Assembly: GCA_900318085.1 (NCBI GenBank)
Contig: ONJF01000001.1
Span: 1-64,000 of the forward strand
DNA length: 64,000 nt
Reading direction: 5' to 3'
Source: an uncultured Bacteroidales bacterium
Lineage (GTDB): Bacteria > Bacteroidota > Bacteroidia > Bacteroidales > F082
Position 1 is the stretch's first letter; each line of letters starts with the position of its first letter. Positions 2,980 through 58,400 of this stretch are shown piece after piece. The position numbers and the translations under genes were made by a program. The notes beneath the pieces were generated by a model that saw nothing but the letters and a program-made list of their open reading frames with translations, did no database searches and had not been told where the DNA came from.

Positions 2980-3689
2980 CCGACGCGCGCCCATTCCACT
3001 TCAAGCATTTCAGCCTCTTCCATCATCGCTCGACGATGAAGGTGGGGACGGATGCCATATTGTTGGGGCGCTGGACCGAAGTCAGGCCGACGGATGTGGT
3101 ACTGGATATTGGCACAGGCTGTGGTCTGCTGCCGCTGATGCTATCGCAGAAAGGTGTGGCTCACGTGGACGCCGTTGACATCGACAAGGCCTCTATTGAA
3201 GAGGCGACGGTCAACTTTGAGGCCTCGCAGTGGCGCGAGCATCTGAAGGCTTTTTGTGTCGATATCGTTGATTTCTATACGGAAAAGAAATACGACCTCA
3301 TCGTCTCCAATCCTCCTTATTTCAACCGTTTCTCGAAATGCGACTCGGAGCGGAAGAGTCGTGCAAGGCACAATGACGCAGGCTTGTCATACGCTACGAT
3401 ATGCCATGAGGTCGGTCGTTTGATGCAGCCTGATGGGCGTTTTGCCTTGGTGCTGCCCGCCGATGTGTCAATGGAGTTTCTGGATACCGCGGAGCGTAAC
3501 GGCCTTTATCTTCACAAAAGGATGACCATTGTGCCAATAGCGGGGAAGGAGCCCAACCGTGTCAATCTGGAATTGGGTTTCGAAAAAAGCAATAATGTAT
3601 TCGAGGAAACCTTCGTCATCCGTGATGAAGACAAGCGTTTCACGGCGCAATACAATGAATTCCTGAAGGATTACTATCTAGGCCTTTAA
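2976..3689 (+). CDS. trmN6: tRNA1(Val) A37 N6-methyltransferase (TrmN6/YfiC family)
   Basis: This 237-residue class I SAM-dependent methyltransferase has motif I DIGTGCGLLPLM (about residues 45-56), an acidic motif II (VDAVDID) and the N6-adenine signature NPPYF (about residue 112). The N-terminal FHFKHFSLFHHRSTMKVGTD is typical of the YfiC/TrmN6 group, which methylates A37 of tRNA1(Val). It overlaps rimM by 4 bp, giving a two-gene RNA/ribosome maturation operon. A related RNA N6-adenine methylase specificity cannot be excluded. Confidence 0.9.
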   Translation: MTDARPFHFKHFSLFHHRSTMKVGTDAILLGRWTEVRPTDVVLDIGTGCGLLPLMLSQKGVAHVDAVDIDKASIEEATVNFEASQWREHLKAFCVDIVDFYTEKKYDLIVSNPPYFNRFSKCDSERKSRARHNDAGLSYATICHEVGRLMQPDGRFALVLPADVSMEFLDTAERNGLYLHKRMTIVPIAGKEPNRVNLELGFEKSNNVFEETFVIRDEDKRFTAQYNEFLKDYYLGL

Positions 3690-3690
3690 T

Positions 3691-3720
3691 CTCTAAACTC
3701 TACACTCTAAACTCTCAACT
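3691..3720. repeat. Heptamer array (CTCTAAA type)
   Basis: Four 7-bp units in register: CTCTAAA, CTCTACA, CTCTAAA, CTCTCAA. It fills the whole gap between the convergent stop codons at 3689 and 3719. Relatives are at 31929, 47849 and 52323. Confidence 0.8.
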
Positions 3721-4576: not shown

Positions 4577-4633
4577 TTTCGTTTCGTTTGGGTAGATAAC
4601 TTGATTGTCTCGCTTTTATTGCGAAACAGCATG

Positions 4634-4641
4634 CAAAATTA
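4634..4641 (-). promoter_or_regulatory. -7 box for the outer membrane barrel gene
   Basis: TAATTTTG on the minus strand is about 58 bp upstream of the start at 4576. Confidence 0.45.
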
Positions 4642-4652
4642 CAAATTCATTT

Positions 4653-11728: not shown

Positions 11729-11799
11729 GACTGCGGGACTGCGGGACTGCGGGACGATTTAAGAGTCTCGCAGTCCCGTAGTCCCGCGGTCTCGTAGTC
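11729..11799. repeat. Octamer array and its complementary array
   Basis: The left arm (11729-11755) is 8-bp units of CTGCGGGA in register. The right arm (11765-11799) is TCTCGCAG, TCCCGTAG, TCCCGCGG, TCTCGTAG, the degenerate reverse complement. It sits inside the RND operon between adaptor and pump. A second member is at 31073-31148. Confidence 0.85.
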
Positions 11800-17527: not shown

Positions 17528-17661
17528 AATGCGAAATGTGGAACGTAAATGTAGAATGCTGAATGCGGAATGCTGAAATTGCAGATTCAACGAAGTCAAT
17601 GACGGCGATATCCAGCGTCGCTTTGCGCCATTCCGCATTCATAATTTCACATTCCGCATTC
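17528..17661. repeat. Heptamer array (GAATGCN type) and complementary array
   Basis: GAATGCT/GAATGCG units lie at about 17553-17576, and the reverse-complement units CATTCCG, CATTCAT, CATTCCG, CATTCAA at 17628-17661. The divergent tex and small-membrane-protein promoters flank it. Sister elements are at 38593 and 57392. Confidence 0.85.
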
Positions 17662-18049: not shown

Positions 18050-18156
18050 GACTATGACTTGTGACTATGACAATGACTGCTTCAATCAAGGGTTGAAACT
18101 TCAAACCTCCTGTTAAAGCAGTCATGGTCATGGTCAATGGTCATGGTCAAAAAGTC
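18050..18156. repeat. GACTATGAC-word array and complementary GTCATGGTC array
   Basis: The left side (18050-18080) has repeated GACTATGAC-like words; the right side (18118-18156) has GTCATGGTCATGGTCAATGG-type words, roughly the reverse complement. Units are less regular (6-9 bp) than in the other arrays. It fills most of the 199-bp gap before the HAD gene; nothing else is recognisable in the gap except the -7 box at 18188-18195. Confidence 0.65.
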
Positions 18157-21065: not shown

Positions 21066-21203
21066 CACGCAGAATCCGCAGAATCCGCAGAACCTGCCGG
21101 ACGCAAACTTGGCGTCGCTTTGCGCTTCATATAGTTCTGCGGATTCTGCGTGCGTAATTACACGCCGCATCGCGATTCATAATAGTTCTGCGAATTCTGC
21201 GTG
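21066..21203. repeat. 9-bp word array (CGCAGAATC) with complementary copies
   Basis: CGCAGAATC units lie at 21068-21093 in a 9-bp register. Reverse-complement copies with GTTCTGCGGATTCTGCGTG are at 21134-21152 and, with one change, 21185-21203. It fills the gap between nnr and the MATE gene. Confidence 0.85.
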
Positions 21204-24691: not shown

Positions 24692-25153
24692 TCAATCCGT
24701 CTCAAACGCCCACCGTTCATCATACTCAATGCCTGCCTCATCAAGGAGCTGCTTGTATTCGTCTCTCCAGTCGGTGCGGTGGTGGTGCTCCGCTTGGGTG
24801 CGGATATATTGCGCAACTCGGTCTATACCTCTGTAATCCACCGAGAAGGCCCCATAGCCTGCCTGCCAGCAGAAGCCCTCGTAATACTGTTCGTCCAATG
24901 TCTTGATCCACTTGCTGCTGTAGGCCTTGATCCTCTTCACGAAGTCGGACAAGGAGATGGTCTTGGGCAACGAGGTGAGGATGTGGACATGGTTGCCGAT
25001 GCCACCGATTTCGACGGGTATGCCATCCATGTTGCGGATGACACCTCCGATGTATGCAAACACTTTTCCAAGATCCTCGTTGTGTATCTCCATGCTATGA
25101 TACTTGATGTGGAAGACGATATGGATGTCGTTTCTTGCGAGTGAGCTTCCCAT
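24692..25153 (-). CDS. IS200-like REP-associated tyrosine transposase (RAYT)
   Basis: This 153-residue Y1 transposase has the HUH motif as GNHVHIL (about residues 54-60) and the presumed catalytic Tyr in QAGYGAFSV (about 98). It starts MGSSLARNDIHIVFHIK, typical of IS200/REP transposases. The ATG at 25153 is chosen; a longer frame starting at 25240 would read through the REP repeat in the leader. The family binds stem-loop REP sequences and cuts next to them. Here the same kind of repeat flanks the gene on both sides, so it is probably the enzyme that mobilises or once mobilised these elements. Confidence 0.85.
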   Translation of the reverse strand: MGSSLARNDIHIVFHIKYHSMEIHNEDLGKVFAYIGGVIRNMDGIPVEIGGIGNHVHILTSLPKTISLSDFVKRIKAYSSKWIKTLDEQYYEGFCWQAGYGAFSVDYRGIDRVAQYIRTQAEHHHRTDWRDEYKQLLDEAGIEYDERWAFETD

Positions 25154-25176
25154 GATGGTTGAGTTTGTGTGGTCAA

Positions 25177-25219
25177 GGGGATTGAAATCCCCGTAGAAGT
25201 CGGGTCGTCCTTTCAGGAC
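25177..25219. repeat. REP-like palindromes in the transposase leader
   Basis: GGGGATTGAAATCCCC (25177-25192) and GTCCTTTCAGGAC (25207-25219) lie between the promoter and the start of the RAYT gene. They could fold in the mRNA and act in autoregulation; this is an inference. Confidence 0.75.
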
Positions 25220-25239
25220 TCTGCACTGACTCCAGAGCA

Positions 25240-25247
25240 CAAAAGTA
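25240..25247 (-). promoter_or_regulatory. -7 box for the RAYT gene
   Basis: TACTTTTG on the minus strand is 86 bp upstream of the ATG at 25153, so the leader would carry the two palindromes. Confidence 0.5.
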
Positions 25248-25314
25248 GGAAAACTCTATGAATTGTGTAGGTTGTTCTATAAAAGATTTCTCACTATTTC
25301 CAACGTAAAGCCAA

Positions 25315-25428
25315 GTCCTGAAAGGACGATAAGAAACCATCGGACGGTTTCAACCTCCGCAACTAAAGAAGGTCTCAAGTAGGCAGAAAAAAGGACGCCC
25401 CTATCATATCGGACGGTTTCAACCTCCG
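25315..25428. repeat. REP-like cluster C
   Basis: GTCCTGAAAGGAC (25315-25327), then CGGACGGTTTCAACCTCCG twice as exact 19-bp copies (25341-25359 and 25410-25428). They are 69 bp apart and in the same orientation as element B. The gap 25241-25441 holds nothing else recognisable. Confidence 0.85.
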
Positions 25429-27044: not shown

Positions 27045-27184
27045 TCCCTTATTAATGAATCGCGCGTTAAGCGTCTCGTGAACCGCGTCAGAATAATCTT
27101 GAAATTCAACAATTAAACAAATCGAAGATTCAACGTAGTTAATTCAACAAATAAACAATCAACAATCTAAAAACCCCCACAATC

Positions 27185-28213: not shown

Positions 28214-28339
28214 TTTGGCTTCTGGCCTTTGGCCTTTGGCTTCTGGCAGCTTCAACCGAGTACGTCATTGCGGGCTTGACCCGCAATCTCCTAAATGCGG
28301 CGGAGCTGCCAGCAGCCAAGAGCCAGTAGCCAGTAGCAA
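28214..28339. repeat. Heptamer array (TTGGCNT type) enclosing a CGTCATTGCGG element
   Basis: The left arm (28214-28250) has 7-bp units TTGGCTT, CTGGCCT, TTGGCCT, TTGGCTT, CTGGCAG. The right arm (28305-28339) has GCTGCCA, GCAGCCA, AGAGCCA, GTAGCCA, GTAGCAA, the reverse-complement family. Between them (28262-28292) is a copy of the CGTCATTGCGG...CCGCAATCTCCT element also found at 2326. Confidence 0.85.
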
Positions 28340-28352
28340 AACAAAAACAACA

Positions 28353-31072: not shown

Positions 31073-31148
31073 GACGTGAGACTACGTGACTTCGGGACTT
31101 CGAGACGTAATCAAGTCCCGCAGTCCCGTGTCCCGCAGTCTCGGAGTC
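31073..31148. repeat. Octamer array (ACTTCGGG type) and complementary GTCCCGCA array
   Basis: The left arm (31073-31106) reads GACGTGAG, ACTACGTG, ACTTCGGG, ACTTCGAG. The right arm (31115-31148) is GTCCCGCA, GTCCCGT, GTCCCGCA, GTCTCGGA. It belongs to the same word family as 11729-11799. It lies directly upstream of nadE. Confidence 0.85.
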
Positions 31149-31928: not shown

Positions 31929-31960
31929 CACTCTAAACTCTCAACTCTAAACTCTCAACT
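31929..31960. repeat. Heptamer array (CTCTAAA type)
   Basis: CTCTAAA, CTCTCAA, CTCTAAA, CTCTCAA in exact 7-bp register, directly upstream of the thioesterase start at 31964. Confidence 0.8.
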
Positions 31961-32359: not shown

Positions 32360-32362
32360 CCC

Positions 32363-36369
<4,007 letters not shown>

Positions 36370-38581: not shown

Positions 38582-38592
38582 GGAATTTTTTT

Positions 38593-38674
38593 GAATGCTG
38601 AATGTGGAATGCTGAATGCTGAATGCTGAATGAAGGGAAACACATTCCTCATTCAGCATTCATAATTCCGCATT
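38593..38674. repeat. Heptamer array (GAATGCT type) and complementary array
   Basis: GAATGCT, GAATGTG, GAATGCT, GAATGCT, GAATGCT, GAATGAA (38593-38634), then CATTCCT, CATTCAG, CATTCAT, AATTCCG, CATT (38643-38674). It lies between the divergent aat and truA promoters. Confidence 0.88.
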
Positions 38675-43680: not shown

Positions 43681-43730
43681 CGCCGCCTGGCAGGGACTGA
43701 CGTCGCCTGGCAGGGACTGACGTCGCCTGC
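43681..43730. repeat. 20-bp tandem repeat, 2.5 copies
   Basis: CGYCGCCTGGCAGGGACTGA at 43681-43700 and 43701-43720, plus a 10-bp partial copy. It ends immediately at the rfbD stop codon. The rest of the 94-bp gap is unremarkable. Confidence 0.85.
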
Positions 43731-47848: not shown

Positions 47849-47896
47849 CTCTCAACTCTCAGCTTTTAACTGACTCTAAACTCTAAACTCTAAACT
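47849..47896. repeat. Heptamer array (CTCTAAA type)
   Basis: CTCTCAA, CTCTCAG, CTTTTAA, then CTCTAAA three times. It fills the gap between convergent stops and overlaps the LuxR stop codon. Confidence 0.8.
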
Positions 47897-57069: not shown

Positions 57070-57390
57070 ATGGCAGTAATTCAAATGACTGACGACCGTT
57101 TCGAAGAAGTCGTCCTGAAATCGGAACTCCCTGTGATGGTGGACTTTGGCGCCACTTGGTGCGGCCCCTGCAAAAAGGTCGAACCCATCGTTGAAGAACT
57201 CTCTGAAGAATATGAGGGCAAGATGATTGCCGTGAAATGCGACGTCGAGGAATGCCCTGGCACCGCCGGCAAATATGGCATCATGAACATCCCCACCGTC
57301 CTTTACTTCAAGGGTGGCGAGCCTGTCGACAAGAACGTTGGCGCCGCTCCCAAGAAGGTGTTCGTGGAGAAACTGGAGAAATTGTTCTGA
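57070..57390 (+). CDS. trxA: Thioredoxin
   Basis: This 106-residue protein has the redox motif WCGPCK (Cys31, Cys34) and the cis-Pro region MNIPTVLYFKGGE. It reduces disulfides in cytoplasmic proteins. It is a full-length classical thioredoxin with its own promoter. It is followed by a heptamer element, so co-transcription with DUF58 is not certain. Confidence 0.95.
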   Translation: MAVIQMTDDRFEEVVLKSELPVMVDFGATWCGPCKKVEPIVEELSEEYEGKMIAVKCDVEECPGTAGKYGIMNIPTVLYFKGGEPVDKNVGAAPKKVFVEKLEKLF

Positions 57391-57391
57391 A

Positions 57392-57462
57392 AATGCTGAA
57401 TGCGGAATGTGGAATGCTGAATGATTAGCATTCCTAATTCCGCATTCCTAATTCCGCATTCC
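57392..57462. repeat. Heptamer array (AATGCGG type) and complementary array
   Basis: Left arm: GAATGCG, GAATGTG, GAATGCT, GAATG (57392-57423). Right arm: CATTCCT, AATTCCG, CATTCCT, AATTCCG, CATTCC (57429-57462). It ends 2 bp before the start codon of the next gene. Confidence 0.88.
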
Positions 57463-57464
57463 AT

Positions 57465-58400
57465 TTGGACTTTTCAATCGATAGGAACCGGCTGACGCAA
57501 TTCGGCAGCTTGGAGTTCTTGGCACGTCAAATCGTGGAGGGATTCATCACGGGTTTACACAAGAGTCCCTTCCACGGTTTTTCTGTTGAGTTCGCCGAGC
57601 ATCGCCTTTATAACACGGGCGAGCCCATCCGTCATATCGACTGGAAACTCTATGGCCGCACGGAGAAACTCTTCGTCAAGCGTTACGAGGAAGAGACCAA
57701 CCTGCGCTGTCAACTGGTCATTGACCAAAGCTCGAGCATGTGCTTTCCTGTGAGGCAGAAGGTCGACTTCGAGCATCCCAACAAACTCTTTTTCTCCATC
57801 TATGCCGCTGCCTCGCTCATGGAGCTGATGCGTCGCCAACGCGATGCCGTGGGCCTCGACTTGTTTGACGAGACGATAGCGTTTCATGAACCAGCCAAGT
57901 CATCCAATGTGCATAACAAGTTGATCTATACCGAGCTGGAGAAACTGATTGACACCTATGACAAAAACAACCGCAAGACGACCTCAACACCGCAGTGCCT
58001 TCACCAGATTGCAGAGATGACGCACCGCCGCAGCCTTGTGGTCATCTTTACCGATATGCTTGACGGCCTCGACGACTACAAGCCGATGTTCGAGGCGTTG
58101 GAGCATTTGAAATACAACAAACACGAAGTCATCCTGTTCCATGTCTTCGACAGCAATTTGGAGCAGAATCTGGACTTCGAAAATCGCCCGTACCGTTTCG
58201 TCGATTTGGAGTCGGGCGACACTTTGAAACTCAATCCCGTTGAGGTTCAGGAGGCATATAAGAAGGTTATGACTGAACGCAAGGAAGCTCTGCTGCGCCA
58301 TTGCTACCAGTACCAAATCGACTACGTTGAGGCCGATATTAATAAGGACTACAACCAGGTCTTGACGAGTTACTTAATCAAAAGAACAAAACTGCATTAA
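57465..58400 (+). CDS. DUF58-family protein (von Willebrand A-like)
   Basis: This 311-residue protein has the DUF58 signature GEPIRHIDWKLYGRTEKLFVKRYEEETNL (about 49-76) and a VWA-like metal site in VIDQSSSMCF (about 87-96). Such proteins in Bacteroidetes are usually encoded beside MoxR ATPases and BatA/BatB; here the partners are not visible. No ATG or GTG is available; the apparent start is TTG at 57465, only 2 bp after the repeat array. The next gene begins 2 bp after the stop, so the two are likely one operon. Confidence 0.82.
   Translation: MDFSIDRNRLTQFGSLEFLARQIVEGFITGLHKSPFHGFSVEFAEHRLYNTGEPIRHIDWKLYGRTEKLFVKRYEEETNLRCQLVIDQSSSMCFPVRQKVDFEHPNKLFFSIYAAASLMELMRRQRDAVGLDLFDETIAFHEPAKSSNVHNKLIYTELEKLIDTYDKNNRKTTSTPQCLHQIAEMTHRRSLVVIFTDMLDGLDDYKPMFEALEHLKYNKHEVILFHVFDSNLEQNLDFENRPYRFVDLESGDTLKLNPVEVQEAYKKVMTERKEALLRHCYQYQIDYVEADINKDYNQVLTSYLIKRTKLH

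Follow-up and report, generated by a model that had tools for sequence, protein, structure and literature searches.

The STRR of cyanobacteria are built from particular word classes, and a 1997 paper is said to have described them in RNase P RNA. Intergenic direct repeats of the heptamer TAACTGA have been reported from Beggiatoaceae, Cyanobacteria, and five Bacteroidetes (MacGregor 2015, PMC4679880, as far as its accessible text goes). Arrays that face their own complement are known from Xanthomonas. According to the accessible text of Rehm et al. (2015, PMC4692102), GGGAATC heptamer arrays form inverted repeats as 70 and 75 convergent pairs in two Xanthomonas; these pairs are intergenic, lie near stop codons, seldom fall between divergent genes, and are mostly transcribed, and the single or inverted-pair type of an array is usually kept between the two. 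The same text describes few inverted pairs among the GGGGA(T/C)T repeats of Nostoc.

Three further systems bear on the exchange of such sequences. In the P6b stem of the Nostoc trnL(UAA) intron, heptamers of Class I (TDNGATT) or Class II (NNTGAGT) face their complements, and the accessible part of Kaasalainen et al. (2015, PMC4476775) describes classes that repeatedly replace each other while the fold stays, with stem length varying by seven-nucleotide repeats. The GTAG- and CGTC-tagged REP and BIME sequences are intergenic palindromes that follow genes in co-directional or convergent arrangement and are presumed to work at the RNA level (Di Nocera et al. 2013, PMC3733652); single REPs span 20 to 40 bp and carry a terminal tag, and GTAG types are linked to RAYT in the accessible sections of that paper. 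Finally, dimorphic and polymorphic small variable segments have been proposed to arise through replacement by recombination (Touzain et al. 2010, PMC2884548, accessible text).

We analyzed a window of 64,000 nucleotides from a rumen Bacteroidales genome, in which a pair of facing word arrays takes up the entire gap that separates a thioredoxin stop codon from a DUF58 start (Table 1). Judged by its nadE protein, the nearest named relatives of this genome are uncultured metagenome bins of Bacteroidales or Bacteroidia, many of them titled as ruminant material. The upstream arm reads AATGCTG/AATGCGG/AATGTGG/AATGCTG/AATG; after a short spacer, the downstream arm reads CATTCCT/AATTCCG/CATTCCT/AATTCCG/CATTCC. 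This element, at 57391, had no match in plasmid and phage collections. We read it, with a probability of roughly 0.55, as an example of small dispersed intergenic hairpin elements of about 60 to 180 nt whose families interchange at junctions and that have a role at the 3' end of mRNA. In one large class of these elements, the arms are degenerate arrays of 6- to 9-nt words facing their complements. Below, W denotes the window sequence, L numbers denote loci of relatives or further loci of the own genome, and G numbers denote genomes of the same genus.

Table 1. Features of the focal junction and other elements in the window (positions in nucleotides from the start of the window)
Feature	Position	Strand	Remark
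5' arm of focal element, degenerate GAATNNN heptamer array	57392..57423	+	Directly after thioredoxin stop codon
3' arm of focal element, complementary NNNATTC heptamer array	57428..57462	+	Stops 2 nt before DUF58 start
Slot (entire stop-to-start segment)	57391..57464	+	In 60 congeners: same family, unrelated hairpins, or nothing
Thioredoxin gene (PF00085), upstream of slot	57070..57390	+	
DUF58 gene (PF01882), downstream of slot	57465..58400	+	
GACTGCGG octamer array against its complement	11729..11799		Same gap: TCAGCNN arrays in four congeners, 13 nt in one
GAATGCx heptamer array against its complement	17528..17659		56-nt inner stretch with GCGTCGCTTTGCGC
GACTAT(G) 6-7 nt array against its complement	18050..18150		Gap of 0 nt in relative L018
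CGCAGAATC nonamer array against its complement	21066..21152		L009: same family, matching changes in both arms
TGGCCTT heptamer array against its complement	28214..28341		A GTCATTGCGGGCTTGACCCGC palindrome is nested inside; relatives hold other hairpin families
GACTTCGG octamer array against its complement	31076..31148		Four relatives have palindromes of GTAG or CCTGAGC type, six have 18-31 nt
TGAATGC heptamer array against its complement	38592..38674		Divergent gap; no such array in L009, L014
REP-type double hairpin	32360..32439	+	CGTC-type hairpin in its place in L015, L019
Direct ACTCTAA heptamer array	3687..3720		Convergent gap; in relatives various palindromes, GACTATG facing arrays, or little
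ACTCTAA array, direct only, no complementary arm	31930..31960		
ACTCTAA array, direct only, no complementary arm	47849..47896		

The layout itself is of a known kind; what is new is how many families there are and, most of all, that unrelated hairpins are exchanged at one junction. STRR, which the earlier note had named as the nearest analogue, share with these arrays tandem degenerate heptamers in intergenic, dispersed positions, and period 7 was found in 21 of 35 arrays here, but the Xanthomonas inverted pairs and the Nostoc P6b stem are closer. As in Xanthomonas, degenerate heptamer arrays face each other near a stop codon. However, in Xanthomonas and Nostoc each genome has a single G-rich type of word, which the accessible text examines with a view to G-quadruplexes, whereas we found about ten families with periods of 6 to 9, most without G-tracts. 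By inspection, GAATGCx, GACTATG, TGGCCTT, and CGCAGAATC arrays lacked regular GGG, and GACTGCGG units do give GGG. The swap of unrelated hairpin families at one orthologous junction seen here was not met for Xanthomonas or Nostoc in what was accessible of PMC4692102. The P6b stem resembles the focal junction in that the word class is exchanged while the fold is kept, yet it is one stem with two classes in a group I intron, and here many intergenic junctions carry many families. No tRNA-Leu group I intron was found in the window, where the only Rfam matches above threshold were a TPP riboswitch (RF00059, 154-262 on the minus strand) and tRNA.

Word-array hairpins are, like REP and BIME sequences, intergenic palindromes after genes, but they show neither a terminal tag nor a RAYT link. 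Many of the non-array palindromes that share slots with the arrays do resemble GTAG- and CGTC-tagged REPs, the assignment of single sequences being our own. Small variable segments are similar in that one locus, with conserved flanks, can hold differing short sequences; in the accessible text of PMC2884548 they are unconnected with hairpins or word arrays, unlike the segments described here. The earlier note had known of no Bacteroidales equivalent. We likewise found no description of facing arrays in Bacteroidales in the literature searched, although the TAACTGA arrays of five Bacteroidetes qualify that claim: they too are intergenic heptamer arrays, but direct ones, mostly just upstream of starts, with one indirect repeat in the genome studied (PMC4679880, accessible text). 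A search of the literature with the letters of the CGTCATTGCGAGG palindrome found no paper.

To characterize abundance, we sampled 861 kb of the 3.24-Mb genome (the window and 40 further stretches), a sample that is not random because its contigs had come up as sequence matches in an earlier search. Genes were modeled with a simple hexamer caller written for this analysis, and the gaps it predicted make up 8.7% of bases. Defining a strong inverted repeat by an ungapped score of at least 13, we counted 129 in the sample and 1 in a Markov-2 control modeled on it. The large majority (105) lay in predicted gaps and 24 elsewhere; five Markov runs on gap sequence yielded 0 to 3. Among these 105 gap repeats, 65 stood between co-directional, 30 between convergent, and 10 between divergent genes. 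The word-array type, for which the periodicity of the arms had to exceed the 99th percentile among shuffles of their letters, accounted for 35, the last few of which are doubtful, with a period of 7 in 21, 9 in 7, 6 in 4, and 8 in 3. By eye, the other 70 resemble terminators and REP-like palindromes. In addition, TRF (period 6 to 10, score of at least 30) found 17 arrays in the 5.65 kb of predicted gaps of the window, with both arms of a single site counted in some cases; 20 Markov-2 runs gave a mean of 0.9 and a maximum of 3. The arrays are more frequent than chance, and the layout is genome-wide. Because 41 of 80 genus genomes, this one included, carry a GAAT facing array, an assembly artifact, a possibility raised by the earlier note, is ruled out.

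Facing arrays had been claimed at seven sites in the window, although eight were listed, and all eight hold facing arms. At six of the window positions (11729, 17548, 18050, 21066, 28214, and 38601) the ungapped score was 15 to 20, and site 31073 scored 12.0 with an MFE z of -5.3. The strict register of 7 to 10 bp held in part: the word arrays are real, but facing arrays have periods of 6, 7, 8, and 9 that are not strictly kept. At 18050, for example, the register is mostly 6 nt with one-base slips, and the one 10-nt array (26294) is direct only. Likewise, the constant layout of array, spacer, and complement was borne out genome-wide, but the words, said to differ from site to site, recur as about ten families. 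The proposal that arm length moves in word steps was supported: G070 lacks one 6-nt word in the first arm and G019 lacks one in the second, and word-unit steps in length also separate W from its near relative G042.

Arrays are placed close to the gene they follow. Between co-directional genes, their median distance is 5 nt to the preceding stop codon and 19 nt to the following start, and 21 of 25 are nearer to the upstream gene. Inverted repeats as a whole were rarer in divergent gaps of at least 60 nt (10/80 versus 75/285, P = 0.01); arrays alone were not significantly so (5/80 versus 29/285, P = 0.38). With a ribosomal-protein contig as the reference, codon adaptation of the upstream gene was higher at co-directional hairpin gaps (0.715, n = 59) than at hairpin-free gaps of 30 to 300 nt (0.661, n = 217; P = 6e-5), a comparison in which gap length was unmatched, and arrays alone gave a similar value (0.718, n = 25, P = 0.007). 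Downstream genes did not differ between hairpin and hairpin-free co-directional gaps (P = 0.86). The link with codon bias could instead arise from elements inserting close to strongly transcribed genes.

As stable hairpins located behind stop codons, with 25 arrays between co-directional and 5 between convergent genes, the elements might be intrinsic transcription terminators of unusual make-up. We regard this as improbable. A run of at least five T's within 12 nt outside the stem stood beside 1 of 35 arrays, compared with 8 of 70 other inverted repeats, and including the outer 8 nt of the arm left the arrays at 1/35 and raised the others to 21/70. Since U-tracts are mostly absent, the arrays are not ordinary intrinsic terminators. 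Moreover, the co-directional genes that they separate directly adjoin each other in relatives.

The arrays fall, grouped by eye, into recurring families that include GAATGCx, GACTGCGG, GACTAT, GACCCT, TGGCTAC, TTAGCCA, TCAGCNN, CGCAGAATC, AAAACC, and others. The order of arms in the GAAT family is fixed: the GAAT array precedes the ATTC array in the 41 genus genomes, and the opposite order was seen once, in one genome. In the phylum as a whole, 21 of 395 genomes, counting the own one, carry the GAAT facing array, and their variable triplets differ. Two families have loops in common. In our sample, the CGCAGAATC loops of three loci were pairwise 0.69 to 0.84 identical, against shuffled-triple means of at most 0.61, and the AAAACC loops of three loci 0.63 to 0.75 identical, against at most 0.59. 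Several GAATGC loops contain GGCGCAAAGCGAC-like letters by eye. Families thus recur across loci, two of them with common loops, and the elements therefore look dispersed; they look as if copied as units of arms plus loop.

Within an arm, the variable triplets are homogenized (identity of 0.29 versus 0.13). Between the arms of one element, triplets matched better than with shuffled partners in GAAT elements of other genomes (0.243 versus 0.119, n = 40 elements, 0 of 2,000 shuffles as high), which are not fully independent because some are orthologues; this match may reflect species-level word usage. In the own genome, the two arms matched no better than those of different elements (0.104 versus 0.147, n = 15). 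Arm-to-arm coevolution was accordingly discarded there, the arms of one element matching no better than others' in those 15. GACTATG orthologues differ by few changes, which leaves little scope for reading covariation. By eye, W and G042 differ in CGG/CCG versus CTG/CAG usage in both arms.

These patterns bear on whether an array and its reverse complement are made on the spot by slippage and template switching, without dispersal or function. Homogenization within arms, gains and losses of single words, the paired CGG/CCG and CTG/CAG usage, and the arm match outside the own genome are what such local production would leave. However, families recur at many loci, two share a loop at non-homologous loci, the arm order is fixed, and own-genome arms match each other no better than chance, and we consider an origin of this kind very improbable. 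Dispersed elements, as we prefer to read them, can still have been reshaped in place: they would spread as units, arms and loop together, by some copying route, after which slippage would lengthen, shorten, and homogenize each arm.

Evidence for exchange comes from the thioredoxin-DUF58 junction, which we surveyed in 61 species (W and 60 congeners) out of the 99 genomes of the genus; distant relatives are under-sampled in this census because genomes were picked by sequence match. The junction was empty in 16 species (at most 2 nt or gene overlap in 15, 11 nt in one) and held at least 30 nt in 45. Folding was strong (MFE z < -2) in 42 of these 45, with a median of -7.6; the exceptions were G023, G061, and G054. 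Facing word arrays of eight families filled 27 junctions: 9 GAATGC, 8 GACTAT, 3 GACTGAG-like, 2 TCAGCAG, 2 AGTTAAA, and 1 each of GACACGG, CGCAGAT, and GAGAATT. Palindromes of five other types filled 16 (in 4, 4, 3, 3, and 2 species), the two-species type including G061 with a 36-nt piece only. There was one direct array only (G054) and one 38-nt remnant (G023), so that the 45 filled slots include one plain direct array and two short pieces, the latter with z of -1.2. State labels were assigned by eye, including G095 to GACTGAG, G087 to GCGGGCTTGACC, and G061 to CGTCATTGCGAG.

On a tree of the thioredoxin and DUF58 genes, two genes that may themselves recombine, the 16 states (14 sequence types, empty, and remnant) required at least 31 changes, and occupancy, filled or empty, at least 11. 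G018 and G089, on end branches of 0.012 each, carry a CCTGAGC and a GAATGC hairpin, respectively, between almost identical flanks. The whole stop-to-start segment can differ between nearly identical flanking coding sequences, and the stop codon can switch along with it, being TAA or the TGA inside a TGACTAT word. When filled and empty sister junctions were compared by eye, no clear target-site duplication, a mark of MITEs, was seen; the stop codon and leader differ too. Replacement via recombination between conserved flanking genes would be a plausible route.

Other junctions of the window behave similarly. At gap 28214, 9 of 10 relatives are filled by three unrelated types, with z < -3 in all 10 filled sequences, W included. 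TGGCCTT-type arrays occur in W, L009, L010, L014, and L017, a CGTC-type palindrome in L011, L013, L015, and L018, and a CCCCCTT hairpin in L012; L016 has 3 nt. The L015 sequence has an ungapped score of 0 and yet folds with z < -3. Gap 11714, matched in 7 of 30 genomes, holds arrays of two families: W, G042, and G031 have the GACTGCGG type, whereas G021, G070, G016, and G096 have TCAGCNN. G024 has 13 nt, and the six filled relatives have z of -3.0 to -5.0. Gap 32360, chosen as a control, folds and exchanges as well, with a REP-type pair in five and an unrelated CGTC-type hairpin in two. Gap 3690 is looser, with many types and z < -2 in 10 of 17 relatives with at least 30 nt. At gap 31073, W and 4 of 10 relatives are filled and six relatives have 18 to 31 nt; folds are weaker (z of -1.7 to -5.3, below -3 in three of the five long sequences, W included). 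At gap 22556, both relatives seen carry a CGGAGGTTGAAACCTCCG pair and W has no inverted repeat. Array hairpins are thus one class within a larger interchangeable set, to which REP-like palindromes found in these orthologous gaps also belong.

Other gaps stay free of hairpins. The gap 5' of the thioredoxin gene (56983) had no inverted repeat in any of 10 relatives and a median z of +0.6 over 11 sequences, and the tight junction 29388, of 7 to 25 nt, had neither hairpin nor inverted repeat in 10 of 10 relatives. At gap 12825, the fold was absent in two relatives. Folding was also weak at gaps 37634 (median z of 0.1, three sequences), 47325 (-0.4, four), and 26177 (-1.9, three). At gap 4577, none of 17 relatives reached z < -2; by eye, G065 has a GACTTCGG-type facing array inserted there (whole 195-nt gap, z of -1.3), and G091 has a longer, different sequence. 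Positions 4577-4652 and most orthologues seen share a conserved run like GGATTAACTGATTT...TTTTATTG...GCAAAAATACAAA, which is probably a promoter region.

What could keep a hairpin at some junctions and not at others? By analogy with REP and BIME sequences, a hairpin in the mRNA could protect or mark the 3' end of a well-expressed upstream message and uncouple that message from the next gene, as is thought for REP/BIME. Any family might then serve, because on such a view only the fold matters, and whole stop-to-start segments may be exchanged through recombination between the conserved flanking genes. A stronger form, which we put forward tentatively, is that certain junctions are selected to carry an mRNA hairpin of about 60 to 180 nt and are refilled by any at hand, so that the fold would be inherited and the letters would not. 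On this reading, more than a dozen unrelated families, many of slippage-prone words, interchange within a few percent divergence.

It is also conceivable, though short of an even chance in our estimate, that junctions such as this one are neutral hotspots, where mobile or copied hairpins insert widely, are retained only just behind stop codons at places that lack a promoter, and later get deleted, a matter of tolerance and not benefit. The alternation of filled and empty states at the focal junction fits such turnover, and the 16 of 61 species with an empty slot can evidently do without the hairpin. Gaps 56983 and 4577, which are hairpin-free, have a conserved and promoter-like appearance, the array of G065 entered even the latter, and two families share their loops. 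Against tolerance alone, junction 29388 is hairpin-free in all 10 relatives while the focal junction is filled in 45 of 61; codon bias is associated with upstream but not downstream genes; and just one direct array and two short pieces occur among the 45 filled slots.

Whether hairpin elements with a role at mRNA ends or neutral insertions are at work matters beyond this junction. If the fold is kept while letters swap, an entire layer of operon structure would escape homology-based RNA searches, and function would be underestimated from intergenic conservation; the 61 natural variants of one junction are a ready-made experiment on the effect of an intercistronic hairpin. If the process is neutral, the turnover of tiny dispersed elements can be followed here with unusual clarity, and the question is then what copies them.

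Y1 transposases are candidates, with word-array hairpins as relatives of RAYT-mobilized REP and BIME sequences. Y1_Tnp matches occur in 57 of 80 genus genomes, and their number correlates with GAAT-array counts, which in the 80 genus and 395 phylum genomes are overlapping matches rather than distinct elements (rho = 0.53; 0.35 as a partial correlation on genome size; presence, Fisher P = 0.001; kinship ignored). Nevertheless, 21 Y1 domains (6 from the own genome and 15 from seven congeners) had no word array among the inverted repeats listed up to 900 bp away (five loci listed none), and REP-type or other palindromes appeared instead. By inspection, the 35 array elements had no common tag and lacked GTAG or CGTC, and G063 has arrays and no Y1 match. 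We therefore rejected the RAYT/Y1 transposase as the mover, correlated as it is, since the flanks of Y1 genes carry other palindromes; we give mobilization of this kind very little credence. No mobilizing enzyme for the array hairpins was found.

The window has one Y1 match, a RAYT-like gene at 24692-25240 on the minus strand, and a facing CGTCCTTTCAGGACT palindrome pair lies beside its start (25205-25329). The same pair adjoins Y1 genes of G021 and G031 (L239 and L245). At 43684-43729, CGCCTGGCAGGGACTGACGT is present in 2.3 copies, and it may be the REP family of another own Y1 gene because a similar CAGGGACTCACGTCGCCTG pair flanks that gene (L234).

Several other features were noted among the arrays. 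In G063, the facing arrays are of GAATTAA/GAATGAA words, and the words listed are unlike those of the own genome, a difference that looks like species-wide word drift. Loops of TGGC-type elements (window 28214, L100 1088, and L106 16036) hold nested palindromes of the GGAGATTGCGG... type or similar, one hairpin family inside another. A-rich direct arrays of the AACAATT type without a complementary arm stand right before starts (slot ends of L120, L122, L124, and L126; window 27144-27167) and are perhaps translation leaders. Finally, L139 contains a very long GAATG element (829-986) with about fifteen words on its 3' side, partly alternating GCG and GTG in a 14-nt higher-order repeat.
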